Shown piece by piece: positions 3,705 through 29,825 of a stretch of 32,276 nucleotides of DNA. Source of the DNA: a virus. The notes beneath the pieces are model-generated. The model had not been told where the DNA came from. It saw nothing but the letters and a program-made list of their open reading frames with translations, and made no database searches. The stretch covers positions 1 to 32,276 of IMG/VR virus record IMGVR_UViG_3300035212_000444. One strand, written 5' to 3'. Numbering within the stretch: position 1 is the stretch's first letter; each line of letters starts with the position of its first letter. A program made the position numbers and the translations under genes.

Positions 3705-3710
3705 AAGGAG

Positions 3711-3738
3711 TTGCAAAGCCAAAAAATCTGTGTACCAT
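3711..3738 (+). promoter_or_regulatory. Possible sigma70-like promoter in 67-base gap
   Basis: The gap between the helicase and coiled-coil genes is the longest in the + strand operon. It contains TTGCAA (3711-3716), a 16-base A-rich spacer and TACCAT (3733-3738). Each element matches the sigma70 consensus at four of six positions. It could drive separate expression of the coiled-coil, ssDNA-binding and primase genes. The match is weak, and AT-rich gaps throw up such hits by chance. Confidence 0.2.
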
Positions 3739-3771
3739 GTCCAACCTTAGACAAAAAAACAGGAGAAGTAG

Positions 3772-4176: not shown

Positions 4177-4191
4177 CCCCAGGAGAAACCT

Positions 4192-5157
4192 ATGAGCAAC
4201 GTAGCTCTTTTCAACCCTTCCCAAGTCCCGTCCTTTGCACGCAAAGGTGAGTTGTCCGATATTGCCAAAGCCCTTGCAGGCGGTGGTGCTGGCCAGTCAG
4301 GTGAGCGCATCTCCATCAAAGGTGGTGTGTTTCGTTTGCTGTCAGGCGGTAAAGAAATCGCCGCCATTGAGGAGCGCTACCTCGATGTGGTGATCGTCAA
4401 GGCCGCGCCCAAAGTCGCCCGTACCTTCTACATGAAGAAGTATGACGGTGAGACCGCAGCGTCCCCCGACTGCTGGAGCAATGATGGCGAGACCCCAGAC
4501 GCCAAGTCCAAGAACCCCCAGGCCGACACCTGCAACGGCTGCACACAGAACATCGCGGGTTCAGGTCAAGGCAACAGCCGCGCCTGCCGCTACCAACAGC
4601 GCCTTGCTGTGGTGCTGGCCAACGACATCGAGGGTTCAGTCAAGCAGTTGGCCCTGCCTGCCACCTCGCTGTTCGGCAAGGAAGTTGGCGAAGACCGCCC
4701 ATTGCAGGCGTATGCCCGCTGGTTGGTGGCCCAGGGTGTTGACCCCAGCACCGTTGTGACCCGCATGAAGTTTGACACCAAGGCCGAAGCGCCCAAGTTG
4801 TTCTTCAAAGCCATGCGCTGGCTGACCGATGAGGAGTACGCCGAAGCTACCAAGCAAGGCGAGTCCGAAGATGCCAAGCGTGCGGTGGTGATGAACGTGG
4901 CTGCACAAGACAGCGTAGCTCCTGCCAACCCCCTGGGCGGCACACCGCCCAAAGCGGCCAAGGCTGCGCCTGCTCCCGTTGCTGAAGAAGAGGACGAAGC
5001 ACCTGCTCCCGCCCCCAAGGCCAGCAAGAAGCCCAAGACCGAGCCCGTAGCGGACGCGGACGAGGAGCCGACTGTGAAGAAAGAAGAGAAGAAGCCCAGT
5101 GCTGTGCCCGGTAAGAAAGACTTGGCATCTGTTGTGGCTGATTGGGACGACGAGTAA
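4192..5157 (+). CDS. Probable ssDNA-binding protein with zinc-site cysteines and acidic tail
   Basis: This 321-residue protein has a folded N-terminal part of about 240 residues and a low-complexity tail (about 243-321) rich in Ala, Pro, Lys and Glu that ends D-W-D-D-E. Four cysteines, C94, C114, C117 and C132, could bind zinc. A zinc-holding core plus an acidic, aromatic-ended tail is the plan of phage ssDNA-binding proteins such as T4 gp32, whose tail recruits polymerase and helicase. There is no clear sequence match to gp32, so the assignment is by architecture and position beside replication genes. AGGAG lies 7 bases before the ATG. The gene is followed by a UUCG-capped hairpin. An alternative is a conserved recombination mediator. 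Confidence 0.6.
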   Translation: MSNVALFNPSQVPSFARKGELSDIAKALAGGGAGQSGERISIKGGVFRLLSGGKEIAAIEERYLDVVIVKAAPKVARTFYMKKYDGETAASPDCWSNDGETPDAKSKNPQADTCNGCTQNIAGSGQGNSRACRYQQRLAVVLANDIEGSVKQLALPATSLFGKEVGEDRPLQAYARWLVAQGVDPSTVVTRMKFDTKAEAPKLFFKAMRWLTDEEYAEATKQGESEDAKRAVVMNVAAQDSVAPANPLGGTPPKAAKAAPAPVAEEEDEAPAPAPKASKKPKTEPVADADEEPTVKKEEKKPSAVPGKKDLASVVADWDDE

Positions 5158-5163
5158 AACCAG

Positions 5164-5181
5164 CGGGGGCTTCGGCCCCTG
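5164..5181 (+). promoter_or_regulatory. GC-rich hairpin with TTCG tetraloop
   Basis: A GGGGC/GCCCC stem (5166-5170 with 5175-5179) closes on TTCG, giving the very stable C(UUCG)G loop, and G-T and C-G pairs extend the base. It lies 8 bases after the ssDNA-binding gene and 8 bases before the HTH ATG. Only a weak T-run follows, so it is a poor intrinsic terminator; it may attenuate, protect the upstream mRNA end or control translation of the HTH gene. Confidence 0.45.
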
Positions 5182-5189
5182 TATTAACG

Positions 5190-5468
5190 ATGGCCTACTC
5201 AGAAAAAACAATTAACGCGATCATGCGTGCCCCCAAGACTCAAGGCAATCAGCTTGGGCGGTGGGCCGCGCATCACAACTTCTCGGTCGTGCGTATCTCC
5301 AAAGCCTTGGGGGTGTCGCGCCAGACTGTCTACAACTGGTTTGAGGGTGGCGACATCTTCCCCGCCTATGAGTTCCGGGTCGAGACCATGTTGAAATTCC
5401 TACAAACCGCCCACTCAGCCGATGACGCCTGGAGAAAAATATGCGCACACTACAACCTCGAACCCTGA
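5190..5468 (+). CDS. Helix-turn-helix DNA-binding protein
   Basis: This 92-residue protein contains a helix-turn-helix at about residues 33-54 (V-V-R-I-S-K-A-L-G-V-S-R-Q-T-V-Y-N-W), with the usual A-L-G-V-S turn and a recognition helix starting S-R-Q-T. The rest is helical and ends with a Trp- and His-containing segment. It is probably a small transcription regulator or accessory replication DNA-binding protein. The ATG at 5190 has no ribosome site in the usual window because the preceding bases belong to the TTCG hairpin. A TTG at 5142 would add 16 poor residues inside the upstream gene. The end overlaps the next gene by 28 bases. No operator could be identified. Confidence 0.75.
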   Translation: MAYSEKTINAIMRAPKTQGNQLGRWAAHHNFSVVRISKALGVSRQTVYNWFEGGDIFPAYEFRVETMLKFLQTAHSADDAWRKICAHYNLEP

Positions 5469-5626
5469 CCAACAGCGAACTCATCCGCATTGCGGCGGAC
5501 GAACTGGACTCGCACAACAGCATGCCCCGCGAGTGGCAGCTTGAATTGCTACGCCGCTTCACAGCGCTGGCACCCAGCGACGAGTACCCACCCAAAGACC
5601 CACAGCAAATCGACCTGTTCAAATAA
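5441..5626 (+). CDS. Small phage protein, unknown function
   Basis: This 61-residue protein starts inside the end of the HTH gene (28-base overlap, different frame), with GGAGA a few bases before its ATG. It is mostly helical and charged (S-E-L-I-R-I-A-A-D-E-L then R-E-W-Q-L-E-L-L-R-R-F) and ends with D-L-F-K. It has no cysteine, signal peptide or membrane segment. The overlap and the ribosome site suggest coupled translation with the HTH protein and a common regulatory or replication role. I do not recognise a family. Confidence 0.6.
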   Translation: MRTLQPRTLTNSELIRIAADELDSHNSMPREWQLELLRRFTALAPSDEYPPKDPQQIDLFK

Positions 5627-5640
5627 GCCGAAGGACATCC

Positions 5641-8535
5641 ATGACCCCGCTTGAATTTCTAGCGGTCGTTTTGCCGTCCCCGGAATACGGGTACTACTGT
5701 GCGGCAGAGCTATCAACAAAACAAAAGGAGCACATCTATGTCACAGCGCTTGAGGAGTTTTACCCCACCGTAGATCGTTGGGTCGATGAGGAGAAGAACG
5801 TCTTCTTCGCCCTGGCTACATTTGAGAACAACACCAGCCGCAAGGCTGAGAACGCCGCCTTCGTTAAGTCCTTGTTCATCGACATGGACGGCTACGCATC
5901 CAAGCGGCAAGCGGCCCTGGCACTGCACGCCTTTCTGGTGGAGACCGGGCTTGAAGAACTGGGCATGCCCTGGGTGGTGGCATCTGGCGGCGGTTTGCAC
6001 TGCTACTGGCCCTTCACCAAGGCGCTGCCCAAGGACGAGTGGAAGCTGATCGCCGAGAGCTTCAAGCGGTTGTGCAAGCAGTGCAAGCTCAACATCGACA
6101 TGACCGTCACGGCGGACGCTGCCAGGGTGCTGCGCATCCCAGGCACACGCAACTTCAAGGAGAAGTACCCAACCCCTCGGGAAGTCAAGCTGATGACCGA
6201 AGGCGCTGTGTTCGACCCTGATATTTTGTCCGACATGATAGTCAGCAAGCTGGTCATCCAGGCGGTGCAACCAGCCAAGCTGGACTTGCCGGGCAAGCGT
6301 CCCGATGCCGCCCCAGTACCGACAGCGACCACGGCCAAGATGTTTGAGAACAGCGTGACCAAGTTCAAGAACATTCTGGTCAAGACCAAGGCAGGCAACG
6401 GCTGCGCCCAGCTCAAGCACTTTGTTGAGAACGCCGAGGAAGACGGCATGGAGCCGCTGTGGCGTGGGTGGTTGAGCATCGCCCAGAAGTGTGAGGACGG
6501 CGGCAAGGCAGCGGCATGGCTGTCAAACCTGCACCCCTACCCCCAAGACCGCATGGAGCAAAAGCTGCGTGAGATCAAAGGGCCGTACCCTTGCGTCAAG
6601 TTCGATAGCGAGAACCCAGGGGTCTGCGACCGGTGTCAGTTCTTTGGAAAAATCACCAACCCACTTGCACTCGGACGCGAAGTAAAGCTTGAGACCCAGG
6701 CCAAAGAGATCGAAGTGGTCATGCCTGCCGAAGCCAGCGGTATTGCGGCTGAAGTAAAAAAAGTCCTGCGCCCCACGCCGCCACGGGGCTACTCATACGG
6801 GACCAAGGGCGGCGTATATATTGACAAGGAGATTGAAGACGCAGAAGGAAACAAAGTAAAGAAGCCTGTACTCATACTGCCATACGACCTGTTCGTAGTG
6901 GACATTCTCAACAACGGCGGTGAACACATTGTTCACATGCTTGCACTCAGGCCAGACGGGCCTGCAACCATCACCATGGCGCAAAAGGCCGTGGTGAGCA
7001 AAGACGAAACTGTCAAAGCCCTAGCCACCCAGAACATCATCGCAGCGTTCGGTTCGGGCAATGACGCAAACCTATTTTCATATGTGAGAGCAGCCGTGGA
7101 AGAATCCAGCACAGGAAAAGCCGCCGTCAAAGTCCCCGCCAACTACGGCTGGCAAGACGACAACACCATCGTATACGCAGGCAAGATTTACTCCACGGGC
7201 ACGCCCATCTCGGTGCCCATGCCAGGGCTTGAGAACATCGTGGCCAACACCAAGCCAACCGGGACGATTGAAGCATGGCGCAATTTTGTGAACCTGCTCA
7301 TCCAAAAGGAGATGTACGACCACTTGGCCATCATGCTTGCGGGTATTGGAGCGCCACTCATGCGCTTCACTGGCATGTACGGAATGACCTACCACTGCGG
7401 CTCTACTGAGTCAGGTACGGGTAAGACGCTGGCGCTGGAAGCAGCCGCCTCAGTCTGGGGCCACCCCACCCACTACCGCACGGGCAAGAGCACATCGCCT
7501 GTCGCCATGCAACAGCGCCTGGGTCTGCTCAACAGCTTCGCCCTGATAACGGACGAGATCACCGCCAAGAACCGCAAGGACTTCGAGTGGTTCCCTGAGT
7601 TCTTGCTGGACATGACCGAGGGCCGGGGCAAGGAGCGCATGGAGTCGGGGTCCAACAAAGAGCGCTTGAACCTGTCCACCTGGATGACCAACGCGATCAT
7701 GTCGTCCAACACCCACGCCGTGGATATGCTGACCGGGGCACGCAAGCATGCGTCTGAGGGCGAACTGCGCCGCCTGTTGGAGTTCATCATGGACCAGCCC
7801 CTGACTTGGGAGCCGCACGAGATCGAGATCGTCAAGTCCTTGCAGCACAACTACGGCGTGGCTGGGCACATCATCGTGGACTACATGGCCAAGAACGTAG
7901 ACTTCCTGGCCAAACTTGTGCCCGACACTGTGCGCACCGCGTACAAGGAGTTCAACGCCACCAATGACGAGCGCTTCTGGATGGCAGGCATTGGCACCAT
8001 CATCGCTGCCGGGGTCATGATTAACAGCAAGCACGCTGGTGTGATCGACATCCCCATGATAAAAATCATCGAGCGCTTGCACAAGGTGATCGACACCATG
8101 CGCGGCAACGTCAAGGGCAACGCCCGCACCGCAGAGGATGTGCTCAACGCCTATACCCGCGACAACTACGGCAAGTTCATCATCGTCAAGCAAATTGAGC
8201 GTGGTCGTATCCTGGCAGAACTGGGCAACGGCAAGGAGGTGGATGAGTCCATCACGCGCTCAAGCATCATGGGCCGGGTCGAGCACGGCTTCACGCCGGG
8301 GTACATCGACTACTACATTGAGGAGAGCATGCTCAAGGCTTGCTGCGCCAGCATGAGCTACGGCTACGCCGACTTCAAACGCAAGCTGGGTATGGAGTGT
8401 GCGGTCACTCCCATGCCGAAGAAGGACTTGACTGCAAAAACCCGTGGGCCGCAGATGCGTGTGTCCGTGCTCAAGATCAGCAGACCCGTAACCGACTTGG
8501 AAGATGACGATCCACTATCCATGGCCGCAGCTTGA
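5641..8535 (+). CDS. Primase-helicase: AEP-like primase fused to DUF927-like AAA+ helicase
   Basis: This 964-residue protein combines two replication activities. The N-terminal ~200 residues carry archaeo-eukaryotic primase motifs: D81-x-D83 in F-I-D-M-D-G (metal binding), S115-G-G-G-L-H120, and R162...R165 in A-A-R-V-L-R-I-P-G-T-R. A middle helical region ends in a cysteine cluster (C318, C329, C332) typical of primase linker domains. The C-terminal half has Walker A G587-S-T-E-S-G-T-G-K-T596 and Walker B L-I-T-D638-E639, in the style of DUF927-type phage and plasmid helicases. It should prime and unwind at the phage fork together with the family A polymerase. AAGGAC precedes the ATG. Its last 32 bases overlap the next small gene. 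Confidence is high for the primase and ATPase parts, and moderate for the DUF927 label. Confidence 0.88.
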   Translation: MTPLEFLAVVLPSPEYGYYCAAELSTKQKEHIYVTALEEFYPTVDRWVDEEKNVFFALATFENNTSRKAENAAFVKSLFIDMDGYASKRQAALALHAFLVETGLEELGMPWVVASGGGLHCYWPFTKALPKDEWKLIAESFKRLCKQCKLNIDMTVTADAARVLRIPGTRNFKEKYPTPREVKLMTEGAVFDPDILSDMIVSKLVIQAVQPAKLDLPGKRPDAAPVPTATTAKMFENSVTKFKNILVKTKAGNGCAQLKHFVENAEEDGMEPLWRGWLSIAQKCEDGGKAAAWLSNLHPYPQDRMEQKLREIKGPYPCVKFDSENPGVCDRCQFFGKITNPLALGREVKLETQAKEIEVVMPAEASGIAAEVKKVLRPTPPRGYSYGTKGGVYIDKEIEDAEGNKVKKPVLILPYDLFVVDILNNGGEHIVHMLALRPDGPATITMAQKAVVSKDETVKALATQNIIAAFGSGNDANLFSYVRAAVEESSTGKAAVKVPANYGWQDDNTIVYAGKIYSTGTPISVPMPGLENIVANTKPTGTIEAWRNFVNLLIQKEMYDHLAIMLAGIGAPLMRFTGMYGMTYHCGSTESGTGKTLALEAAASVWGHPTHYRTGKSTSPVAMQQRLGLLNSFALITDEITAKNRKDFEWFPEFLLDMTEGRGKERMESGSNKERLNLSTWMTNAIMSSNTHAVDMLTGARKHASEGELRRLLEFIMDQPLTWEPHEIEIVKSLQHNYGVAGHIIVDYMAKNVDFLAKLVPDTVRTAYKEFNATNDERFWMAGIGTIIAAGVMINSKHAGVIDIPMIKIIERLHKVIDTMRGNVKGNARTAEDVLNAYTRDNYGKFIIVKQIERGRILAELGNGKEVDESITRSSIMGRVEHGFTPGYIDYYIEESMLKACCASMSYGYADFKRKLGMECAVTPMPKKDLTAKTRGPQMRVSVLKISRPVTDLEDDDPLSMAAA

Positions 8536-8692
8536 GCGGGGGCAGGGGTTCTTTGTCCCCTGCCTCGATGTGGAACGCATCCGCGAGGAAGGACTGCGCG
8601 AAGCGGTTAAGTGCAGATTGAAGGATGCCCGCGCTGTGTCGGGCATCCGCCACGCCCTTATTGGGGTTTGGTTCTATCGGCTACCTCGATAA
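8504..8692 (+). CDS. Small conserved phage protein at end of early arm
   Basis: This 62-residue protein overlaps the primase-helicase end by 32 bases, with GGAAG immediately before its ATG. It begins with a Pro/Trp-rich stretch, then R-G-Q-G-F-F-V-P-C-L-D, then a basic helix (R-E-E-G-L-R-E-A-V), and ends G-V-W-F-Y-R-L-P-R. I recall this G-Q-G-F-F-V-P pattern from short orphan proteins in other phages, which supports a real gene. Its 3' end runs 35 bases into the end of the convergent late gene. The function is unknown; the Arg-rich helix and aromatic C-terminus would suit nucleic-acid contact, but that is a guess. Confidence 0.6.
   Translation: MTIHYPWPQLERGQGFFVPCLDVERIREEGLREAVKCRLKDARAVSGIRHALIGVWFYRLPR
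8541..8564. terminator. Perfect 8-bp inverted repeat after the primase stop, possible terminator
   Basis: GGCAGGGG (8541-8548) pairs perfectly with CCCCTGCC (8557-8564) around an 8-base TTCTTTGT loop, and the stem can extend two more pairs (one G-T). It lies 6 bases after the primase-helicase stop, inside the 62-residue gene, where the two transcription arms converge. No T-run follows on either strand, so any termination would be weak or factor-assisted. Confidence 0.35.
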
Positions 8693-11600
8693 ACTTTCGA
8701 GCGTAGTTCGTTTTCAGCTTGTCCAGCTTTTCCAACTGTGCGTCTTTCTGCTCAGTGGTCAGGTTGGGGGATGCGCGAATCGCACGCTCTTGCTTGGCCA
8801 TTTCGCCCAGTGCCTTTTGCACTTGCCCGGATGTGGTGGCCAGTGCCAACTCAGTTGAGTACCGCTGAGCAAACTCCTTGGCTTCCGCACGCTGGCCTTT
8901 CTCGACCATACTGTTAAACGTGCCCTTGATCTGCTTGAGTTCTTCCATGCGGTCGTAGGCTTCGTCAATGGTGCCCCGGCCTTGAACGGGCTGGAACAAA
9001 CCGCCAATGAACGGCAGCTTGCTGGGCTTGGCAGAAGGCGTGGCAATATCACTGCGCTCACTGGGGGACAGTATCGGGTTGGCCAAGGACATCAATGCAA
9101 TCCCCAACGGCCCGGTGTATCCGCGAATCAGGTGGTCAATGGTGATCGCGCTCACGCCAGCTTCACCTGTGACGCTTCCAATCAGTTTGGCAATCTCGGT
9201 GCTGCTGTCGCGGTAGCGGTCGGTGGCCAGCACCCCTTTTTCTCGCACGGACTCGATGTCGCCGCCGTAGAACGATTTACCCAGTATCGCCTCGGTCAGC
9301 GGCTTGACAGCTTGCGGCAACGCAAACGGGTTGGTCTGGGCAAGCAACTTGCCAATTCCCGCCGCAGCTTTGCTTGCCTTCTCGTCGCCCTGGGCCACGT
9401 TCCATATCGCCTCTGGCAGTGACTTGAACAGGTAGCCCAATTCAAACGGGATTGGCACGCGCACAGGTTCCGACACGCCTGGGATGTACACAAACCAGTT
9501 GCCGTAGCGCTCTTCGGGTTTGGCGCGTTTGTATGCTTCGTCGTCGCTCATCAAAGCGGCGTAAGCCATCGTGCCCACCGCCAACATCATGCCGCGTGCG
9601 TACAGTTTCTCTTTAATTTTGAGTTGTTCGCTGTACGGCATCTGGCCTTTGAACGCCCGGTACAAAACATCCAAGCCTTGAATCTGTGCGTTGAAGAACG
9701 GAATCATCGTGGACAGCATCTGCATGCTGGGCGACAACCCCTTGCGGCTGAAGTTCATGGACTCCAAGGTGCGCAGCAATGCCTGCTGCTCCGTCATGCC
9801 TTTGGCCAAGGAGTCGTTGTACACCACGGCGCGGGTAGCGGCATCTGCCCGCATTGCAAAAACATCAGCTCTGGCCAGATTTTTTTCCCAACCAGATTTG
9901 TTTACGGCAATGTCAGCCAAGAACTTGGACATATCGCGCTGGTCGCCTGTGAAGACATTGCTGCTGATTGCGCCAGATGCCATAAGCGCCTTTTCTGTTT
10001 CGCTGCGGCCTGCAACCATTTTGCCAAGCTCTTTCATTGCGCTGAGCACAGGAGTGGCATCAGTACCTGTAGTCAGCCAAGCATTCAGGGGGTCGCGCAC
10101 CATTTGACGAAAAACGTATGTGGGGTTGCGTGTCACAAACTTACGCAGCACATCCGCTGGGTAGCCCATCAGCTTGACGATTGCCGGGATGGTGGTCTTG
10201 ATGCCTTCCATGCCCTTGACAATCAAGTCGGCGGGGATGCCGTACAAGTCGGTGTCGATCAGCGCGTAGTGATCTTCGCCGTTCTTTTTAAAGCGCACAA
10301 CATCATTGCGCGTGCCAGCGGGGCCTTTGCCGGGAGCAACGCGGCTGGCAATACCGATCTTGCGCAGGGCAAACGCCGACTCCTTGATGGCTTGATTGCG
10401 CAGGCCCATGCGTGTGAGCATGAAGGTGTTCTGAACCGAACTGGTAAACAAAGGCAGAATCTGCGTGTTGCCGCCCACAAGCTCTTTGAGCTGCGGTTCA
10501 TCCTTGATGTTGGAGATGCGCACAGGCGTTTCTTTGTCTACCATCAAATCGACGTTGCCTTCGCGGTCTACCCGGTAGAACGGCACGTACTCCATTGCTT
10601 TGAGTTCGGCTGCTTTACCGGGCTTGAGTGCGCCTGTCTGCACAATAAAGTCCAGCAACCCGGCGTTGTATTTCTGATACAGCTTAGAGCCGTCTTCAAA
10701 CGCATTTTTGGCAGGCTGGTTGGCGTTGAGCACTGCCATCAATTGCGCGTAATCGGCTTTGATGGCGGCCAGTTTGTCTGCGTCGAAGTTGAGCTTTTCC
10801 CAACCCACTTGCTTCGCACGTTTGCCTGCCAGATACAACGTAGCCATGGCTTCGGTCTGGGCATCATTGCCCACATTGGCTTTGGCAAACGCCTTGGCCA
10901 CATCAATCATGCTGACGCCGGGCTTACTTTTGTAGACATATTCAACGCCTTGGGGAGTCTTGTTGGCCACCAGTTCAACAGCGCCATTGGTCAAGAACTG
11001 CCCGGCGTACTGGCTGTTTTGCTGGCCAAACCGCAAGGAGTATTCGGCGTTGCCTGCTTCTAGAGAAGTGATCTGCCCTTTGGTCAAGCCTTGCTTGAGC
11101 GCCTCAGACAAAGCGGCGTGCTGGTCAACAAGCTGCACACGCCCGGTCAACCCCATGAAGTTCCCAAGCAGGCGGTCTTTTACGCTGGCCTGGGTGGCGG
11201 TCAGGGATGAGCCAATCGTCACGGGTTCTTTGCGGGTGCGGAGTGCAATCTGTCCATCAGCAGCGCGATACGGCCCAATCTTCCTGTCAGCAAACGCTTG
11301 GCGAGACTTCTTCAGTGCGTAGAAAATGTCCGAGTTGGACATCGCGGCCATGTCAGTAAAGCCCATGTCGCGCAGGGCTGCGCGAACCATACCGACCAAC
11401 TCCTTGAGCCAGCGCCCAGCCTTTTGACGGAACGACTCGGTGACCCGCGTTTCTTCCGTGTGCGCAATGATCTCGCGCAACACTTGCAGCTTTTGGATTT
11501 CTTCGCTGCGGCCCAAGGCGGCGTTGGATGCCGCTACTTGCTGCATCTCGGCCAACAGGTCAGCTCCGCCAATGTCCTCGGCCAGTTTTAGCAAATCAGT

Positions 11601-14600
11601 CTTGTTGGCATACTCTTGCAACCGCTTGGCCCCAATCATTGTGTCGATGCCGTAATGGCCAAACAACTCGTGGGCCACGGTGGCTTCCAAGTCCTTGAGG
11701 TCTGTGTGCTGGTTGCCAACGATCAAGACCGTGCCATCACTGAATACCGCGCCCTGCACCATGGCGTCCGTGGGATCAATCCCTTCTTGAGACATGCGCG
11801 TAAGCAAACCAAGGGAAATCTTGCCGGGGTCGGCGGCGTACACAAACTTGACGTTCTCTGGCAATCCTGCCTGCACTTTGTCGATAAATGCTTGTGCTTG
11901 GGCGGGGTCAATGCTTTCACCGGGTGCGGACCGAACGCGGAAAGCTGTGCCTGCTTCGCTGTCTTTGATCGTCTGCTCAATCTCTTTATCAGACATGCGG
12001 CTACCAGCAACCCGCAACTCTTTGGGTGCACCAGTGGCTTTGCGTGTAACTTGAGGTGTGCGCTTACTTGCGGCAACTTGCTTGCCTGCTGTGGGTAGCA
12101 CTTCTTGAAAGTAGGCAATCTGCTCCTTCAGCGTGGCTTTGTATTCAGGCGTTGTTTTGCCCAACTCCAGCGCCTTGGCTTCCATCTCTTCGCGCACCAC
12201 GGCTTTGAAATCGTTGACCGCATCGTCGTCCTTGCCATACCGGGCAACCAACGCATCCAGCCGCTTCTTGCGCTGCTGTAGCATCGCCTTGTACCCCGGC
12301 TCTTGACGGCCCAACTCCATGGCCAGATTGCGCAGCTTTTCAGACGTTTCGGCTTCCTTGCGCACATCCCCCCGGTTAATCCGGGCGGCTGTCTGTGCCG
12401 TGCGTGACATCGGGGTCTTGGCTGTGCCTGCTTTAACAGCGGCTGCGGTGGCTTGGCGGCGTTCGTTTTCTTCTTTTTGCAACCGTCCCCGTTCTTCTAC
12501 AACAGGTTTAATGGGAGTTGTCTCGTACAGGCTTTGGTGCAACTTGATGATTTGCTCACGCACAGGGGCAATCTTGCCTAACACCATGTTGTATTTGTTG
12601 AGCGCAGCGTCAAGTTTGCGCTGAAGGAACACGTTGGTTTTTCCTTCACGCGCCGCCATTTGCGCAGTAAGCGCATCATGCTCCGCTGCCAAATCGTAGG
12701 CTTGTGCCAACAAAGACTTCTTGGCATTGCGCTGGCGCGTTTCCACCAGCTTCTTCAGGTCTTCAATCTGTTGCGTGACCATTTCATACTCGACCGCAGG
12801 CGCACCGCCTTTGTCGTAGATGTCTTGCAACTTGATCTTTTCCGTTACGGGTTTGTTGTCCTTGTCCAAAACGACGTTGCCATCTTCATCTGTTTTGGTT
12901 TTCTCAATAACTTCAAAGTTCGTGCCGTTTGTAAATCTAGCTTTTGCTCTGGTGTCAAAAAAAGATTCAAACAACGGCGTGCGAGTACGGCGCACGCTTT
13001 GAAGCCGCAGCCCCGGTTCAATCGGTTTCTTAACCAGCTCTTCCCCGCCAAGCCCCAACCGCTCGTCCAACAAACGCATAACACGGGTGCGCTCATCAGC
13101 GGCTTTATCCAACGCGGCAGTTTTGGTCTTCTTGTTTTCTACGTCCGTGATGGTGGCTATCAGTTTCTGGTCGTTGTTCTGTACGGCAGTGCGCAAAATG
13201 TTGGCGGGGCTGAACAAATCAAAGATGTCCGTGCGGGGCTTCTTCTGTGCTGTGGCCAACTCATTTTCAATCTTGTTGATGTCGTCGGTCTGCTTGGACA
13301 GTGCGGCAGCATCCCCAGCCTTGGCCAGTGTGGGCAGCGCAGCGTTGGCTTCGTCCAGCTTGGTTTGCAACGCCTGTACTTTGGCGGGTTCTTTTGGCTC
13401 TGGTGCGGCAGGCGCGGCTGCTTCAACCACTGTGGTTTCAGGCGCTTCAGTGACTTGGGGTGCTGGAGTGGGTGCTTGCTCTTGGGAGAACAGCGCCATT
13501 GTCTCGCCGGGTTGCGTCTGCTGATACGTGCGCATGGTTTCAAACAGCGGGACTTGGGCCTGAAGCTGCTTGACCTTAGTGACTTGCTGGGCGGCAGCGT
13601 CGAAGTCCCCCTTGGCCAACAACTCAAGGCGTTTCTTTTCTGCGGCTTTGAGTTCGCCCAGGAACTCTTTCTCGGACGCTGCCACACCCCCGCGCTCAGT
13701 TACCACCGCGCCCAAGGACTCCAGTTGAGGGAGCAACGCTTGGCGCTGGGCCTGGAGTTGTTCTTGCTCTTCAATGCTTGGGCCTGCGGCCAACTGAGTT
13801 TCAACCGTGTCGATCTGGGTGCGTATTTGACTTAACTGGTCCATCAGCTTGGTGACGGGCGGTAGTGCGGTAGCGTTGGGGATTGCCTGTGCAGCGGTTG
13901 GCTGTGCCCCGGCTGTCTCAGCTTCCATCTGCGCCGCTTGCTGTGCGTACAACGCGTCAATCGCTTCTTTGCGCTGCTGGTATTCGGCTTCCAGCGGTTT
14001 GAACTCGTTGTTGAACTTGGCCAGCTCTTGCTTGGCCGCAACATATGCCTTCTTCTCTTCTACCGTGGAGGCCTTGGTGGGCTTGGTTGCAACCAATGCT
14101 TCAAGTTGTTGGCGCTGTGCAGCCGCAGCCCGGTACTGATCGTCCAAAGCAATCAGTGCTTCTGGTGCATTCTTGGCAGCTTCGGCTTCTTGCGCGGCCT
14201 GGGCGGCTTCGTCCGCTTTTTGTTTGGCCACAGTGTCGCGTGCAGCACCGCGCTCAGACAATCGGCCAGCCCCGCCAATAGGGGCCAGCAGACCAACTTG
14301 GTATGCAGTCCTGCCATATTCAGCCAACGCATCGCTGTCTGTGAGAGACAACCCTGCTTGTGCACGCTCTAGCATCTGCTGGGTAATTTCCGTGGGGATT
14401 TCAGCTACTGCGCCAACGGCGGTGCCTTTGGCCAAGGTTGCAAGCAAACGCTCTTCGGCCAGCTTGGTGGCGTTGCCTGCTCCAATCGTCAACGCTTTGA
14501 CGGGTATTCCTGTCAGTTTGCTTACAAGCTGCCCGCCCAAAGGAATGAACGTCCCGGCCACATCCAGTGCAGCCTGGGGCAAAGCAGCGGCTGCTGCCGC

Positions 14601-15185
14601 ACCTCGGTCAATGTTGAGCGTTTCTCCCCTGGCCTGCTGTTCAGCGGCTTGGCGCTCGATGTTGCCGCCAAACTGGGAGATTAAAGACGGGGCGGCTGCG
14701 CCTGCCACGCCGCCAACAATCGTGCCGACCGGGCCAAAGACGGAGCCTGCTGTTGCGCCCAACCGGGCCGCGCCCAGTGTCGATGCTATGTTGGGCGCTT
14801 GTTCAGCAATGGCTGCGGGGACTTGGCCCAGCGCTTCCTTGGCGGCAGAAAAGACGCCTTGCTCTTCGTATGCCTTCTTGACCTTATCCCAACTGACCTG
14901 CTCTTCGTATTTTTTACTCCGAGCTTCTCCGCGTGCCAATGCGCTTTTGGCCGCTTCCTCGGGAGACCCCATCAGGGATTCTGCGGCGGTCTGTCCGCTG
15001 GACAGAAGTGACTCAAGCCCCTTACCAAACGCCCCGCCCAGACCGCTTTTAGTTGTGGGGGCTGGGGCTTCTACACCAAACGCTTGTGGAAAGTACTTAT
15101 ATGCGTCTCGAAAGGCATCCGCAGGGGACTGTCCTTCTGTAGCTTCATAGTACGCGCCGTTGGGCAAGCGGATGTAGTTGGCCAT
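8658..15185 (-). CDS. Giant polyvalent virion protein with zincin motif and LPD38-like C-terminus
   Basis: This ~2175-residue protein has a recognisable start (M-A-N-Y-I-R-L-P-N-G-A-Y-Y), a Gly/Ala-rich amphipathic region (about 100-260) that could insert in a membrane, and a long Ala/Gln/Lys coiled-coil middle. A metallopeptidase-like domain with H1172-E-L-F-G-H1177 follows. The C-terminal region (about 1680-2050, including V-Y-I-P-G-V and V-P-I-P-F-E-L-G-Y) resembles the large-polyvalent-protein domain LPD38. Polyvalent proteins are multi-domain phage products thought to enter the cell with the DNA and disarm host systems. By position and size it also matches T7 gp16, the internal ejection protein. 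I chose the ATG; a GTG three codons upstream is in frame, and neither has a strong ribosome site. Confidence 0.85.
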   Translation of the reverse strand: MANYIRLPNGAYYEATEGQSPADAFRDAYKYFPQAFGVEAPAPTTKSGLGGAFGKGLESLLSSGQTAAESLMGSPEEAAKSALARGEARSKKYEEQVSWDKVKKAYEEQGVFSAAKEALGQVPAAIAEQAPNIASTLGAARLGATAGSVFGPVGTIVGGVAGAAAPSLISQFGGNIERQAAEQQARGETLNIDRGAAAAAALPQAALDVAGTFIPLGGQLVSKLTGIPVKALTIGAGNATKLAEERLLATLAKGTAVGAVAEIPTEITQQMLERAQAGLSLTDSDALAEYGRTAYQVGLLAPIGGAGRLSERGAARDTVAKQKADEAAQAAQEAEAAKNAPEALIALDDQYRAAAAQRQQLEALVATKPTKASTVEEKKAYVAAKQELAKFNNEFKPLEAEYQQRKEAIDALYAQQAAQMEAETAGAQPTAAQAIPNATALPPVTKLMDQLSQIRTQIDTVETQLAAGPSIEEQEQLQAQRQALLPQLESLGAVVTERGGVAASEKEFLGELKAAEKKRLELLAKGDFDAAAQQVTKVKQLQAQVPLFETMRTYQQTQPGETMALFSQEQAPTPAPQVTEAPETTVVEAAAPAAPEPKEPAKVQALQTKLDEANAALPTLAKAGDAAALSKQTDDINKIENELATAQKKPRTDIFDLFSPANILRTAVQNNDQKLIATITDVENKKTKTAALDKAADERTRVMRLLDERLGLGGEELVKKPIEPGLRLQSVRRTRTPLFESFFDTRAKARFTNGTNFEVIEKTKTDEDGNVVLDKDNKPVTEKIKLQDIYDKGGAPAVEYEMVTQQIEDLKKLVETRQRNAKKSLLAQAYDLAAEHDALTAQMAAREGKTNVFLQRKLDAALNKYNMVLGKIAPVREQIIKLHQSLYETTPIKPVVEERGRLQKEENERRQATAAAVKAGTAKTPMSRTAQTAARINRGDVRKEAETSEKLRNLAMELGRQEPGYKAMLQQRKKRLDALVARYGKDDDAVNDFKAVVREEMEAKALELGKTTPEYKATLKEQIAYFQEVLPTAGKQVAASKRTPQVTRKATGAPKELRVAGSRMSDKEIEQTIKDSEAGTAFRVRSAPGESIDPAQAQAFIDKVQAGLPENVKFVYAADPGKISLGLLTRMSQEGIDPTDAMVQGAVFSDGTVLIVGNQHTDLKDLEATVAHELFGHYGIDTMIGAKRLQEYANKTDLLKLAEDIGGADLLAEMQQVAASNAALGRSEEIQKLQVLREIIAHTEETRVTESFRQKAGRWLKELVGMVRAALRDMGFTDMAAMSNSDIFYALKKSRQAFADRKIGPYRAADGQIALRTRKEPVTIGSSLTATQASVKDRLLGNFMGLTGRVQLVDQHAALSEALKQGLTKGQITSLEAGNAEYSLRFGQQNSQYAGQFLTNGAVELVANKTPQGVEYVYKSKPGVSMIDVAKAFAKANVGNDAQTEAMATLYLAGKRAKQVGWEKLNFDADKLAAIKADYAQLMAVLNANQPAKNAFEDGSKLYQKYNAGLLDFIVQTGALKPGKAAELKAMEYVPFYRVDREGNVDLMVDKETPVRISNIKDEPQLKELVGGNTQILPLFTSSVQNTFMLTRMGLRNQAIKESAFALRKIGIASRVAPGKGPAGTRNDVVRFKKNGEDHYALIDTDLYGIPADLIVKGMEGIKTTIPAIVKLMGYPADVLRKFVTRNPTYVFRQMVRDPLNAWLTTGTDATPVLSAMKELGKMVAGRSETEKALMASGAISSNVFTGDQRDMSKFLADIAVNKSGWEKNLARADVFAMRADAATRAVVYNDSLAKGMTEQQALLRTLESMNFSRKGLSPSMQMLSTMIPFFNAQIQGLDVLYRAFKGQMPYSEQLKIKEKLYARGMMLAVGTMAYAALMSDDEAYKRAKPEERYGNWFVYIPGVSEPVRVPIPFELGYLFKSLPEAIWNVAQGDEKASKAAAGIGKLLAQTNPFALPQAVKPLTEAILGKSFYGGDIESVREKGVLATDRYRDSSTEIAKLIGSVTGEAGVSAITIDHLIRGYTGPLGIALMSLANPILSPSERSDIATPSAKPSKLPFIGGLFQPVQGRGTIDEAYDRMEELKQIKGTFNSMVEKGQRAEAKEFAQRYSTELALATTSGQVQKALGEMAKQERAIRASPNLTTEQKDAQLEKLDKLKTNYARKFIEVADRTKPQ

Positions 15186-15243: not shown

Positions 15244-16971
15244 TTATCGCTGACCCGGCGCTCTTAGTACAGGGGCATTTGCAGGGGGTGCGACAAAACT
15301 GCTTCCGCCAGCACCGCCCATACCTGCCATATACACAGCAAACGTGGGGTACCGGGCCATGAACTCACCGCCCTTCAAGGGGTCTGCGGCTTGTGATGTG
15401 TAGGCTTTGTACAGCATAGGTACCTTGTCCGCTTCTTTGAACAGCCCAAAACCTTTAAGTAACGGGCTTCCTTCGGGCTCATTACCAAGCTGTTGGTACA
15501 TGTGGAGAGGGGAACTCAGTCTTGCCGTTTCCGCTTGCTTCGCTGCAATTCTTTCTTGTGCAGAAATTTGAGCTAGCCCCATTCGCTCTCTTGCATTGAT
15601 GTCGTACATCTTGGCGCGGTTTTCCGACATTACGCCAAACGCAACCCGTGAATCTGCCCGGTTCATATCGCCGTCTTTTTGAAGCGCGTCCAACCCCAGT
15701 TTTTCAGCTTCTGTCCTGGTAGCGCGGATGTCTTTCTGGGCAGCGCGGACTTCTTTGGCGTTCATGTCCGCACGGTTTTGACGGAACATGTCGATCTTGT
15801 CAAAGGCTTCGTCCAGTTTTTCACGAGACGCCTCCAACTTATCCAACCCTTCGGTGTAGGCCTTGGCCCCAACGCCCGCACCCTTGCCAATGTTGACCAG
15901 CCCGTGCGGAGATTCCCCGGACATGATGGCAAGTCCTGCTTGGAAAATGGCCAACCCAGGTAGATCAGCTTCGCGTTTGCTCAACTTTTCTCCCCGTTCT
16001 TTGGTTCTTTTTTCGACGGCTTCCATGCCCAAGCCTTGCTTGGCTTGATCGGCTTTGATTTCATCGAGTGCAGCTTTGGCGTCTGTTTCGCGGGCTAGTG
16101 TGTACGTGCCAATTTTGTTTTGCACTGCTTGCGACACAGTGGGTTCGCCAAACTGGTCACGCATATTTTGAAACTCTTTTGCAGTGCCTGTAGCGGTCTG
16201 AGTCAGGCCAGGGATGTCTGCCATCAGCCCTTCGCCGCCAACGGTGGGATTCAGTCCTTGACCGCCGCCGGGTTTTATTCCTCTTGCCGGGGTAGCACCG
16301 GGAACAGGCGTGGCTGGAAGCGGGGGTGCTGCGGGAGCAGCGCGGGGGACAGGCGCGGGAGCAGTGGATTGTTGGAGACGCGCCGCATCTTCTTGTTTCA
16401 TTCTTTGTGCAGTATCGGGTGCGGCAGTTTCAAGAAATTTAATTTGGGCCGCTCTCTCCGCAGCTTTTCTACGCGCAAGAATTTCTTCAACTCGTGCTTG
16501 GTCATAAGCCAAAGATTCCGGGTGTACACCAAAAAGTCCGCTGGGGTCAACCATACCGTGTGAGTACCCCTGCGGCTGGCCCCCAACTCGGAACCGGGGA
16601 ACTTCTCCGCCTTCTTCAAAAGCAACGATGCCACCAGTAGCCATGCGCTGCATATTAGGTGCCGGGAGCTGACCAATACCGCTGTCTTCTGGAAGCTGTT
16701 GTGGCGGCGTGCCTTGCGGCGCACCTTGCGGTGGCATCCCTTGTTGGGGCGGCATTTGTGGCCCCATCTGCGCAATTTCTTGGTCAACCACTTTAGGCTG
16801 CGGCTGTTGCTGCCCCGCCTGTGCACCCTGACGCATCTCTTTACGGCGGTTGGACTCAGACAGCGCCAACGACAACGTGTAGGGGTCGGCCTTGTGCATA
16901 GCCGCGTATTGCTGCAACGCTTGGTCGGACATCCGCGCCATTTGGGCGGTAATCTGGTTGACGTTAATCAT
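15244..16971 (-). CDS. Internal virion protein candidate, Pro/Gln-rich with coiled coil
   Basis: This 575-residue protein starts M-I-N-V-N-Q-I-T-A-Q after an AAGGAA site. The N-terminal 45 residues are helical. A Pro/Gln/Gly-rich linker (about 50-105) follows, then a Gly-Gly segment (A-T-G-G-I-V-A-F-E-E-G-G-E-V-P-R-F, about 111-127), a second Pro/Ala linker, a long charged helical region with coiled-coil character, and a hydrophobic tail. Comparable Gly-Gly segments occur in the two neighbouring virion genes. Lying directly before the giant polyvalent gene, it matches the place of T7 gp15, so it is probably an ejected core protein. No enzymatic motif is seen. A 58-base gap separates it from the giant gene. 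Confidence 0.7.
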   Translation of the reverse strand: MINVNQITAQMARMSDQALQQYAAMHKADPYTLSLALSESNRRKEMRQGAQAGQQQPQPKVVDQEIAQMGPQMPPQQGMPPQGAPQGTPPQQLPEDSGIGQLPAPNMQRMATGGIVAFEEGGEVPRFRVGGQPQGYSHGMVDPSGLFGVHPESLAYDQARVEEILARRKAAERAAQIKFLETAAPDTAQRMKQEDAARLQQSTAPAPVPRAAPAAPPLPATPVPGATPARGIKPGGGQGLNPTVGGEGLMADIPGLTQTATGTAKEFQNMRDQFGEPTVSQAVQNKIGTYTLARETDAKAALDEIKADQAKQGLGMEAVEKRTKERGEKLSKREADLPGLAIFQAGLAIMSGESPHGLVNIGKGAGVGAKAYTEGLDKLEASREKLDEAFDKIDMFRQNRADMNAKEVRAAQKDIRATRTEAEKLGLDALQKDGDMNRADSRVAFGVMSENRAKMYDINARERMGLAQISAQERIAAKQAETARLSSPLHMYQQLGNEPEGSPLLKGFGLFKEADKVPMLYKAYTSQAADPLKGGEFMARYPTFAVYMAGMGGAGGSSFVAPPANAPVLRAPGQR

Positions 16972-16980
16972 GAATATTCC

Positions 16981-18609
16981 TTACCCTATTTTGGAGAGTG
17001 CCAGCTCAGCCAGACCTGCTGGGCGCTGCTTGGCTTTAACTTTGCCGCCCTTTTTCATACCTGCCATTCTGCTCAAGCCATAACCTGCCATGCCCAGACC
17101 TGCTAACTGCGACACGTTGCTGGGGGCGGCTTGGTACATGTTGGTGCTGGTGGACTGCATCGGCAAGCCGCGCAGCATGTTGCTCATAAAGGCCAACTGC
17201 TGCTGGGGGTACTGCTGCGCCATGGCGTAGTTCTGAATCTGCTGGTTCAAGATGCCTTGCTGCTGCGCTTGCTGTTGAGCGCCCAACTGATTCTGCAAAT
17301 TAATGTTGCCAACCTGTTGGCCGTACTGCGTCTGGCCCAACTGACCCAACTGACCAGCGGCTTGCAGCCCGGTCTGCAACCCTTGCATGCCGTAGCCTGC
17401 ACCAAACTGGCGAGACTGCTCCCCGGCTTGCTGGCCAGCCAACCCATACTGTGCGCGTTGCTGTGCGGCGGTCATGCCCTGACCTGCGCCAAACTGTCGG
17501 GACTGTTCACGCATTTGTTGCGCGTTCATACCTTGCTGCTGGTTGGCCAGTTGTGCTTGGAGGTTTTGTCCAGAGCCAAGCCCCTGGGTTTGCAAACGCG
17601 AAGCCAGATTCTGCTGGCCAACATTGAACCCCATGCCTTGATTGGCCAACTGCGCTTGCAGGTTTTGACCTGAACCCAGTTGCTGTATGCCCAATTGAGC
17701 GCCAAGATTTTGCTGACCCACAGTAAGACCCGCGCCTTGGTTGGCTAACGCTGCTTGCATGCGTGCGTTTTGCTCGGCATTAAATTGCTGTTGCGCGTTT
17801 TGGAACGCGGCGTTCTGCCCTTGTGCTTGGATGTCGCCCTTTTGCGTGGCCAAGTTACGTGCGGCTTCAGCTTCCATCAACCCTGCACGGGAGCCACCAA
17901 ATGCGCCAGAACGAACCGCCTGACCAGCACGCTGGGTGCCTGCAATATCGGCTTGACGCTGGGCTTCGCGTTGCTGGATGTCCACTACATTTTGCATGTA
18001 GGGGTTCATGAACTGGTTAGCAGTTCCAGGTTGGTTAAAGCTGTCTGCGCTGACACGCTCGGCAGGCCCCATCTGATACTGCTGCAAGTTGGGCGCGTTT
18101 ACATTAGCCGGGCCTTGCATTTGCAAGTCTTGCAACTGCGGTGCATTGACTTGTTGGGAGTTGAACTGCCCGGTTTGATAGTCTTGGGGCGCTTGGAACT
18201 GATTGCCAAACTGCCCTGCGTCGTAGCTTGCCCCCATAGCGCGTTGTCCTGCCAAGCCCGCAATACCCGACGCCGTGTCCAACTGGGGAGATGTGCCCAT
18301 GTTGGCGGCTCCCCTGAACGACTGCTCCTGCATGGGGCTGAACCCAGCAACGTACTTGGATGGGTCTTCGCTGAACGGCGTGTAGCCCTTCATGCTAGTG
18401 GCGTATTTCTGCCCCGTGGTCGGGTCTGTCTCGTAGTTGTACAACTGCTGCTGGGTTGTGCCAAGCATCGTCTCTACGTATGGACGCGCATACTCAGGGA
18501 TGTTTGTGTTGGACACCGTGGTCTGTGTAGGCGGAGGAGCGCCGCCACCCCCGCCCATGTACAAGCGTGGCCCCATAAAAAAGTCGAGTATGTCGGTAAA
18601 TTTGAACAT
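16981..18609 (-). CDS. Gln-rich repeat virion protein (internal/ejection candidate)
   Basis: This 542-residue protein opens M-F-K-F-T-D-I-L-D-F-F-M-G, then a Gly/Pro linker and a folded N-terminal part (N-T-N-I-P-E-Y-A-R-P-Y). A long Gln/Ala/Gly-rich section follows (about 170-470) made of degenerate repeats around L-G-S-G-Q-N-L-Q-A-Q-L-A-N-Q and R-E-Q-S-R-Q-F-G-A-G. It ends with a Met/Gly segment and M-K-K-G-G-K-V-K. Such Gln/Ala repeats suit long helical bundles, and the position matches T7 gp14, a core protein that forms a pore in the outer membrane during ejection. The ATG at 18609 has GAGGG nearby; a TTG nine codons earlier would overlap the previous gene's end. The next gene lies 9 bases beyond the stop. 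Confidence 0.7.
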   Translation of the reverse strand: MFKFTDILDFFMGPRLYMGGGGGAPPPTQTTVSNTNIPEYARPYVETMLGTTQQQLYNYETDPTTGQKYATSMKGYTPFSEDPSKYVAGFSPMQEQSFRGAANMGTSPQLDTASGIAGLAGQRAMGASYDAGQFGNQFQAPQDYQTGQFNSQQVNAPQLQDLQMQGPANVNAPNLQQYQMGPAERVSADSFNQPGTANQFMNPYMQNVVDIQQREAQRQADIAGTQRAGQAVRSGAFGGSRAGLMEAEAARNLATQKGDIQAQGQNAAFQNAQQQFNAEQNARMQAALANQGAGLTVGQQNLGAQLGIQQLGSGQNLQAQLANQGMGFNVGQQNLASRLQTQGLGSGQNLQAQLANQQQGMNAQQMREQSRQFGAGQGMTAAQQRAQYGLAGQQAGEQSRQFGAGYGMQGLQTGLQAAGQLGQLGQTQYGQQVGNINLQNQLGAQQQAQQQGILNQQIQNYAMAQQYPQQQLAFMSNMLRGLPMQSTSTNMYQAAPSNVSQLAGLGMAGYGLSRMAGMKKGGKVKAKQRPAGLAELALSKIG

Positions 18610-18619
18610 CACAGTGCCC

Positions 18620-19033
18620 TCATATCTTTGTTTCAACCACGGTATAACGCCGTGTAAATCCCTGGTTCTCCAGCAGGCGAACCATTGCTGGACGCCCGCC
18701 CGCTTGAATCTTGGTAGCGCCCATGCCGCGCAACACCGCCTTTAACTGATCCAGTACTGGCTCATTGACAATCCCTGCACCCCCTGCGCTAGTCACAAAC
18801 GCCACCCTGTCGTTGGGGTAGTTTTGAAAAGCGATTGTCATTGCCCCGTGAAGCTGGTTGTCTTCGTCAGTGGCCACTAACAACGTCCAATGTCCCAGCG
18901 TGACGTACATTTTGATCTGCTCAAGCGAGTAGTCATCCCCGCCAAACTTCTCTGTTGCAGCGATGAATTTCTCCACCAACGGCCAAGTCTGGGCGGTGTA
19001 CTGTTGCGGGACATGCTGGACAGTGAGCGTCAT
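18620..19033 (-). CDS. GNAT-like small protein, possible T7 gp13-type internal protein
   Basis: This 137-residue protein reads like a compact alpha/beta acyltransferase (GNAT) fold. It has an N-terminal helix (V-E-K-F-I-A-A-T-E), a central strand (H-W-T-L-L-V-A-T-D-E), a further strand (G-A-M-T-I-A-F), and a C-terminal G-G-R-P-A-M-V-R-L-L-E-N-Q-G-F, the usual end of GNAT domains. The acetyl-CoA loop (Q/R-x-x-G-x-G/A) is not clear, so it may be catalytically silent. T7 gp13, of about the same length and place, also looks GNAT-related to me. Its ATG overlaps the previous stop (ATGA), so it is translated with the Ala/Gly-rich virion gene. It is cytoplasmic or virion-internal, with no signal peptide. 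Confidence 0.6.
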   Translation of the reverse strand: MTLTVQHVPQQYTAQTWPLVEKFIAATEKFGGDDYSLEQIKMYVTLGHWTLLVATDEDNQLHGAMTIAFQNYPNDRVAFVTSAGGAGIVNEPVLDQLKAVLRGMGATKIQAGGRPAMVRLLENQGFTRRYTVVETKI

Positions 19034-27914: not shown

Positions 27915-27933
27915 TTAATTTCCTTATTTGGGG

Positions 27934-29817: not shown

Positions 29818-29825
29818 ATGTGTCC

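Follow-up and report, generated by a model that had tools for sequence, protein, structure and literature searches.

Relation to Described Polyvalent Proteins

Iyer et al. (2017; PMC5512222) reported that zincin-like peptidases are the commonest domains of polyvalent proteins, that one set of them carries an HEXXXH motif, and that LPD38 belongs to the phage-only domains. On the roles of these peptidases, the sections of that paper covered here put autoprocessing (before packaging, in the head or after injection) first and host proteins last; they also state that P1 DdrB is cleaved before packaging and that the virion RNA polymerase of phage N4, which has a zincin, is packaged unprocessed. Here, we analyzed a gene of this kind in IMG/VR virus record IMGVR_UViG_3300035212_000444. 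The window, that is, the whole stretch of DNA that was analyzed, is the entire record of 32,276 bases, which may represent only part of the genome. The gene is a single open frame of 2175 codons at 8658–15185, read on the minus strand from the ATG at 15185 to the stop at 8658; an earlier reading made from the letters alone, called here the sequence-only reading, had placed a 2175-residue protein there and named no strand. This polyvalent protein with LPD38 is probably an ejection protein, carried in the particle and injected with the DNA. Our comparison with its relatives showed that the peptidase behaves as a plug-in: one is kept per chain, and its class has been exchanged by recombination.

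Since HExxxH zincins in polyvalent proteins were described in 2017, the window protein belongs to an already described kind. It shares with the HEXXXH set of Iyer et al. the motif, a glutamate on the following helix, very large size and LPD38. It differs in a C-terminal module (C-module) of about 840 residues, in the exchange of peptidase class upstream of this module and in the exchange of short N-terminal tags, which are not described in the sections of PMC5512222 covered here. The earlier description of a polyvalent protein fits what we found: the LPD38 match is above the cut-off, and the very large chain (2175 amino acids) is encoded in the late block together with a PHROG virion structural protein. 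The zincin is the only enzymatic domain recognized in it.

The DarB-like gp69 of the Bcep22-like phage JC1 also has a zincin followed by the C-module, is encoded near the end of the morphogenesis block and occurs in virions, with 51 unique peptides in particles purified on caesium chloride (PMC9144972, Table 6). Our C-module profile finds gp69 (E = 3.1e-17), with the match falling in the module's second half. Virion presence is established only for this distant relative; the window protein is probably packaged too. JC1 gp69 differs in its length (4515 amino acids), in its extra transglycosylase-like, methylase/helicase-like and LPD3 domains, and in its HExxH motif. N4 gp50 is likewise a giant ejected protein with a zincin directly before a large helical C-terminal domain; that zincin has an HExxH motif, and no activity is assigned to it in the part of PMC12633501 covered here. 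This C1 zincin resembles the alternative, HExxH class found among relatives of the window protein. Unlike N4 gp50, the window protein has no RNA polymerase that we could find.

The Zincin Domain

The zincin domain comprises residues 1082–1305 (11271–11942, minus strand), and its HELFGH motif, residues 1172–1177 (11655–11672, minus strand), lies on the predicted catalytic helix. H1172, E1173 and H1177 are where the sequence-only reading had put them; we specify the form as HExxxH, which has one residue more than classical HExxH, and this extra residue within the motif led us to reject a canonical HExxH reading. We aligned the window protein with 27 of its closer relatives, leaving out the divergent L015, and found that D1165, H1172, E1173, G1176, H1177, G1185, E1238 and A1241 are invariant in 28/28 sequences. 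Among the window protein and five relatives of 17–68% identity, the invariant positions were G1089, H1172, E1173, H1177, G1179, E1238, A1241 and E1245. G1176 is not kept in L015 (HEVGAH), nor in phages 1.232.O, phiARM81mr and PTXU04. E1238, the candidate third ligand, is part of an EIIA stretch (residues 1238–1241; 11463–11474, minus strand) that also holds the invariant A1241, and it lies on a later helix predicted with high confidence. We propose that H1172, H1177 and E1238 hold the metal and that E1173 activates the water.

An AlphaFold model of the domain alone, based on the 28 aligned sequences, had a predicted local distance difference test score (pLDDT) of 84.1 and a predicted template modelling score (pTM) of 0.77. 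Its layout is a helix, a strand, a helix, two strands, the HExxxH helix and then further helices, including helix 147–164 of the model, which bears E1238 (blocks at pLDDT ~94–95). In a longer model of residues 1062–2175 (mean pLDDT 67.7, pTM 0.47), most of the zincin scored 63–87, and the linker region 1296–1353 was mostly of low confidence. The lack of a third ligand or of a zincin fold had been named as a reason to give up the peptidase; what we found is an invariant candidate in E1238 and a predicted zincin-like layout.

Comparisons with solved structures weigh against this assignment. A Foldseek search of the zincin model against the PDB gave no match at E ≤ 0.001 (best E = 0.34), and the VIA-align Z score was at most 5.1. 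By our own count, zincins and their relatives made up 19 of the 50 VIA-align matches listed; however, 14 of the 19 were anthrax lethal factor entries, several of them aligned by its N-terminal part, and unrelated folds reached similar Z scores. The remaining zincin matches were 3e11, YbeY, PPEP-2, collagenase T and IrrE. The domain profile found nothing significant among PDB sequences, the best match being a predicted zincin-like metalloprotease (E = 0.43). On the conserved positions and the predicted layout, the zincin reading of the HELFGH region holds, though the PDB matches are weak. Dipeptidyl peptidase III (family M49) has a HELLGH-type HExxxH motif with a distant glutamate. It was not among the 50 VIA-align matches listed, which does not exclude kinship.

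We calculated pairwise ratios of nonsynonymous to synonymous change (dN/dS), leaving out the near-identical pair L041/L042 and including L086/L090. The ratio was 0.03–0.24 for the zincin in 13/13 pairs, with two of these values unreliable because synonymous change exceeded 2, and 0.03–0.17 for the C-module. For the region before the zincin it was above the zincin value in 7 pairs, saturated in 2 and below in 4. In the HExxH pair L086/L090, the zincins were 45% identical, as against 88% for the C-modules. These ratios point to purifying selection on the zincin domain.

The C-Terminal Module and the Rest of the Chain

Pfam LPD38 (PF18857) matched residues 1882–2060 (9006–9542, minus strand) over its full profile (1–189), with E = 4.5e-31 and 108.8 bits against a cut-off of 27. 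The LPD38-like C-terminus proposed by the sequence-only reading is therefore borne out by the profile check that it had called for. LPD38 was the only Pfam family above its cut-off in the 2175-residue protein, no Pfam zincin family matched, and an NCBIfam search gave no match. PHROG 18222, whose function is listed as unknown, spans residues 1453–2044 (E = 3.7e-29). From alignments of 6 and 10 proteins we defined the C-module as residues 1339–2175 (8661–11171, minus strand), which contain the LPD38 match and are wholly or partly common to LPD38 proteins of Vibrio, Escherichia, Achromobacter, Burkholderia, Bacillus, Pelagibacter and Planktothrix phages. Hence the earlier statement that some 400 residues between the zincin and LPD38 match nothing does not stand, as both the PHROG match and the alignable module cover them.

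Of 50,697 phage records searched by tblastn, 154 gave a match, in every case below 60% identity and short of 80% query coverage. The longest matches start just before the zincin and continue to the end (query 1150–2171 in Vibrio phage 1.232.O, 1135–2154 in Aeromonas phage phiARM81mr), so that in those phages the zincin, the middle and LPD38 are inherited as one piece. Against solved structures, the C-module profile gave EssB (E = 0.0052, with 63 profile positions aligned, in the helical tail) and one more match at E = 4.6; we took the EssB likeness as a mere helix match and rejected it. A fold search of the 1114-residue model against the PDB was uninformative. The same model had 63 matches at E ≤ 0.001 in BFVD, with many named LPD proteins among the best 50; these matches indicate family, not function.

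At the other end of the chain, residues ~1–45 (15051–15185, minus strand) form a tag of the LPNG...EGQS type, which differs among relatives. The Gly/Ala amphipathic region noticed earlier was recovered at residues 115–220 (14526–14843, minus strand), where the G+A fraction is 0.41; the most hydrophobic 19-mers of the protein lie near residues 142–170 and 196–216, and the stretch may be a membrane-inserting part. Of the coiled coil noticed earlier, only modest heptad-like stretches were seen. The charged region at residues 341–1080 (11946–14165, minus strand) evolves fast, with 25–46% identity to 11 relatives compared with 58–72% for residues 1339–1880.

The linker between zincin and C-module (residues 1306–1338; 11172–11270, minus strand) is mostly of low model confidence and could be a processing or docking site. 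By eye, an [IV]G-x-Y...DG...FR-like stretch is seen there in relatives of both peptidase classes. As a cleavage site, however, this shared motif was rejected: one pattern matched 20/42 rows, with 4/46 (L070, L072, L090 and L017) not located, and the other pattern also matched helix ends.

Presence of the Peptidase among Relatives

Scans of IMG/VR virus contigs gave 5, 12, 80, 80 and 80 loci among the matches listed, in overlapping sets. In one scan, at least 503 of 599 pattern matches were confirmed as relatives, so the C-module is common in this collection. The 91 locus identifiers yielded 87 open frames with a C-module anchor (L003, L016, L018 and L019 had no C-module frame), and 3 of the 87 are second copies of contigs already counted (L020, L021, L022). 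A peptidase motif stood upstream of the C-module in 67/69 closed frames (48 HExxxH, 19 HExxH). As for the other two, L065 begins at contig base 6; in L066, the zincin and the C-module of one LPD38 gene are in different frames (bases 2681–5840), which is either a broken gene or an assembly error. Eighteen frames were open at the 5′ end, 10 with the motif and 8 without, and four of these 8 (L054, L067, L068 and L082) do not extend as far as the zincin.

After removal of 90%-identical C-modules, 46 nonredundant proteins remained: 28 HExxxH, 16 HExxH and 2 with neither, both cut. Class profiles found a single zincin, never both classes together, in 44/44 of the motif-bearing nonredundant proteins, the match being weak in L015 (independent E-value, iE, 4e-3). 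The proposed ligand and catalytic positions are invariant in 16/16 HExxH sequences as well. The distance from motif to module anchor was 638–670 residues in 27/28 HExxxH proteins and 828 in L015; among the 16 HExxH proteins it was 653–658 in 4, 777 in 1 and 1308–1499 in 11. In L033, L036, L072, L095 and others, several hundred inserted residues separate the HExxH zincin from the C-module, and a Pfam search of that insert in L033 and L036 gave no match at E ≤ 0.1.

A more diverse set of 48 loci, 3 of them cut, had an HE motif upstream in 45/45 testable loci, 43 of which were also recognized by profile. L205 and L211 were supported by the motif only, that of L205 lying 470 residues before the module. 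In the converse direction, a scan by the HExxxH zincin found the C-module in the same frame in 73/77 loci, the other 4 being cut by the contig end. Many loci of the different sets share contigs, and the sets are not independent. A zincin relic in L073 was considered and rejected, as the identity is concentrated in the linker and C-module. Two scans of genome contigs, each with two short peptide patterns, found no prophage relatives, though some may exist; an LPD38 domain-containing protein is named in an Edwardsiella genome in the part of PMC12779148 covered here.

We also examined 17 named phage records with the C-module (16 picked from the 154 tblastn matches, plus JC1). An HE motif was found upstream in 11: JC1, 1.232.O, phiARM81mr, Pag-Yong1, CF418P1, PTXU04, VvAW1, BA3, 1.183.O, D171 and FGH. 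The PTXU04 protein is PTXU04_00025, and its motif is of the HExxxH form. Pag-Yong1 gave a weak profile match only, and VvAW1, BA3, 1.183.O and FGH have an HExxHxxD form recognized by motif only, which resembles another form described in PMC5512222. The six without the motif are the Bacillus phages Pascal and Pony, the Pelagibacter phages HTVC034P, Lederberg and HTVC010P, and ct8d5349. The motif-less proteins have at most 1681 amino acids and the motif-bearing ones at least 2197. These short LPD38 proteins of Pelagibacter and Bacillus phages and of ct8d5349, which have no HE..H motif, are the loci L181, L184, L185, L187, L189 and L011. Thus the C-module occurs without a peptidase in some phages, and among the 17 the peptidase accompanies long N-terminal regions.

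Exchange of Peptidase Class and N-Terminal Tags

We mapped peptidase class on a C-module tree of 46 rows, a quick IQ-TREE run with Shimodaira–Hasegawa-like approximate likelihood ratio (SH-aLRT) support only and one long-branch warning. The class changes 10 times, and at least 9 changes are forced by well-supported branches. Shuffled class labels gave a mean of 13.2 changes, and 14/500 shuffles were as low as the observed 10; the class is therefore only loosely tied to the C-module tree. The pair L033 (HExxH) and L060 (HExxxH) illustrates this exchange, with C-modules 93.3% identical: their DNA shows patches of similarity up to about codon 1204, loses it across the peptidase and regains it from codon 2281. 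Chimaerism of metagenome contigs is unlikely as a general cause, given the number of independent cases and the preserved frame.

An hhalign comparison of the HExxxH and HExxH classes detected no similarity, and common ancestry within the slot is not supported. The HExxxH profile does match the HExxH zincin of JC1 (iE = 8.7e-9). It was weak against N4 (iE = 0.098; hhalign probability 13.6), whereas the HExxH class profile aligned with N4 residues 2124–2375 over 103 columns at an hhalign probability of 91.6 (E = 8e-7, for a single comparison). The HExxH zincin region of L036 (1218–1404) matches PHROG 2206, virion RNA polymerase, at 2099–2311 (protein-level E = 5.2e-10). The stretch of L033 that best fits PHROG 2206 is elsewhere, at 106–564.

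Several short N-terminal types, in the first ~45 residues, alternate among otherwise very similar LPD38 proteins. L032 and L075 have C-modules 99.2% identical and DNA 97% identical over codons 56–1439, yet their N-terminal tags differ. Among 37 proteins we counted 10 changes of tag type, compared with a mean of 13.96 and a minimum of 10 in 100 shuffles. Types were assigned by regular expressions; LPDG and GPDG are alike and maybe related, and 4/67 frames fall outside all types. The first 30 residues of P1 DarB suffice to direct a reporter to the capsid (PMC9024508), and for this reason we propose the exchangeable LPD38 tags, by analogy, as candidate capsid-targeting signals.

Enzyme-domain exchange between ejection proteins is already known in T7-like phages (PMC8954989), and mosaicism as such is therefore not new. 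Judged from listings and abstracts, the open library searched gave us no description of the LPD38–zincin arrangement or of its exchange, and the part of PMC10386132 covered here has no bearing on it.

Genomic Position and Virion Context

The LPD38 gene is the final gene of a minus-strand late block that extends to the end of the window, and it converges with plus-strand replication genes, the facing one of which ends at 8535. Four further metagenome contigs carry near-identical copies (L001, 99%; L002, 100%; L003, 100% over residues 1–1348; L005, 100% over residues 1–535), two of which have cut copies, and these exclude an artefact of a single assembly. In 40/40 testable proteins of the 46 nonredundant relatives, the largest open reading frame of at least 100 amino acids within the next 1.5 kb was never on the same strand; in several named phages, same-strand genes do come after the LPD38 gene.

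In Pelagibacter LPD38 phages the annotated genes run from tail tubular B through an acetyltransferase, an internal virion protein, a ~580-residue protein and the LPD38 protein to the tail fibre, which parallels T7 genes 12 to 17 and places the LPD38 gene after other internal virion genes. The last place in the late block, in the window and in close relatives, agrees with this order and with the ejection-protein position suggested earlier. Upstream in the window, all on the minus strand, lie genes for a protein of 575 amino acids (15244–16971; no family match at the thresholds used, sub-threshold DUF4865 match at E = 0.22) and a Gln/Gly-rich one of 551 amino acids (16981–18636; no family match), both candidate ejection partners. 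Farther upstream are the genes for a 137-residue protein (18620–19033; phrog_25629, function unknown, E = 0.025), which is weakly identified and stands roughly where relatives have an annotated acetyltransferase, and for a virion structural protein of 776 amino acids (20858–23188; phrog_3287, E = 6.9e-45).

T7 gp16 differs in its length (1318 amino acids against 2175) and has no detectable similarity to the window protein, in which a Pfam search found no transglycosylase domain, a feature that not all gp16-like ejection proteins have. We compared the window neighbours with T7 gp13–15 and with the matching genes of JC1, CF418P1, PTXU04, two Pelagibacter phages and ct8d5349, and no match was better than E = 0.01, the best being the 575-residue protein against a CF418P1 gene (E = 0.011). 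The T7-like set of internal proteins named by the sequence-only reading is thus a statement on gene order, which fits, and not on sequence. A literature search on virion proteomics of PTXU04 gave nothing on that phage among the matches listed.

Function of the Peptidase

In the mechanism that we propose, the short N-terminal tag would take the giant protein into the head, and the amphipathic region and the C-module may act in ejection or DNA entry. The putative zinc peptidase placed shortly before the C-module, with its metal on H1172, H1177 and E1238, would cut the giant chain itself, or the ejection proteins that act with it, while ejection is under way or afterwards, and this processing would separate the N-terminal cargo from the C-terminal core. 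We give processing of the chain or its partners a chance only just short of even. The prepackaging cleavage of P1 DdrB (PMC5512222) was counted as support, and so was the length pattern in the 17 named proteins, since it is expected if the peptidase serves long cargo.

Several observations pull in the opposite direction. No report of the cleavage of any LPD38 protein was found in the literature covered, and the N4 virion RNA polymerase is packaged uncut though its zincin is like those of the alternative class. Nor would self-processing by itself require 10 changes of class. The fixed place of the peptidase near the module holds for the HExxxH class, not for all, and we rated processing lower because the peptidase does not adjoin the module in all HExxH proteins. 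The 5′-open frames L030, L076, L078 and L080 extend past the usual zincin place with no motif; they would need a peptidase farther upstream, as in the insert-bearing proteins. The correlation of length and motif is confounded by host and lineage, as the six motif-less proteins represent about three lineages, and the HTVC010P protein is annotated in pieces, only 504 amino acids of it being tested; among metagenome frames, short closed ones with the motif exist (L070, 1328 amino acids; L092, 1502 amino acids, which looks interrupted). Neither hmmsearch nor hhalign gave anything significant between the C-module and T7 gp15 or gp16, and homology to them was rejected.

The second possibility, which we consider less probable than not, is an effector role: once injected, the zincin would cut a protein of the host's defence, transcription or envelope, with class exchange following changing targets or inhibitors. 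The 10 changes on the tree, some between C-modules as similar as those of L033 and L060, would suit it, host targeting is among the options listed in PMC5512222, and the existence of motif-less related phages means that the C-module as such does not need a peptidase. However, a motif in 67/69 closed frames and in 45/45 testable loci of the second set does not resemble the pattern of a counter-defence gene that is optional. Our analyses turned up neither a host target nor a link to defence, and no search was aimed at one. The counter-defence role suggested by the sequence-only reading thus gained nothing from them: near-universal presence is unusual for such an optional gene, frequent class exchange would suit a changing target, and the sequence data do not decide.

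The near-constant presence of the peptidase argues for a core role and its frequent class exchange for a variable substrate or inhibitor, and the two pull apart. They could tentatively be reconciled, though we think this unlikely, by a slot upstream of the C-terminal core in which one zinc peptidase is kept while its occupant (HExxxH or HExxH; HExxHxxD elsewhere) and the tag are exchanged. The occupant might then act at an important entry step on a host-variable target, for example an envelope or inner-membrane protein.

It is improbable that the zincin is a maturation protease that trims its own or other virion proteins at assembly, before or during packaging. The case of P1 DdrB speaks for it, whereas N4 virion RNA polymerase is packaged whole with its zincin, and motif-less related phages keep the C-module. 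A fold kept for structure only, with a dead or non-catalytic metal site, is very improbable: the N4 C1 zincin is without an assigned activity, but the proposed ligand and catalytic positions are invariant in both classes (28/28 HExxxH and 16/16 HExxH), and these two mutually unmatched classes both keep the active-site pattern. That HELFGH is a chance match and no zincin is scarcely credible despite the lack of Pfam, NCBIfam and significant PDB matches, given its conservation in relatives of 17–75% identity, the predicted layout and the strong purifying selection.

Other Genes in the Window

On the plus strand, 572–889 encodes a 105-residue protein with an HEVVH motif and a weak SprT-like match (PF10263, E = 0.0057, below the cut-off); near the replication genes, it is possibly a small free-standing metallopeptidase. 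Two further plus-strand genes, with a PD-(D/E)XK nuclease match (941–1777, E = 7.4e-16) and a weak HNH match (1758–2021, E = 0.0021, below the cut-off), adjoin a SNF2-type helicase at 2145–3701. At 25818–31787 on the minus strand lie three adjoining large genes, perhaps tail-fibre or decoration genes, in which short repeats resembling ALTGVSASGSVGTV and TLATTATLATLA abound; a Pfam search of two of the three gave no match. The GC skew is −0.217 at 30–31 kb, within this region.

Implications

The Escherichia phages PTXU04 and N4 bear one zincin kind each. What zincins do in ejected phage proteins was not settled by the 2017 paper, in the sections covered here (PMC5512222). The comparative pattern makes this question testable: nearly always one peptidase and, by profile, never two; class exchanged at very similar C-modules; and six short named relatives without the motif. 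If a kept slot with exchanged occupants is the true explanation, the peptidase would be neither an optional anti-defence gene nor a fixed self-cleaving device.

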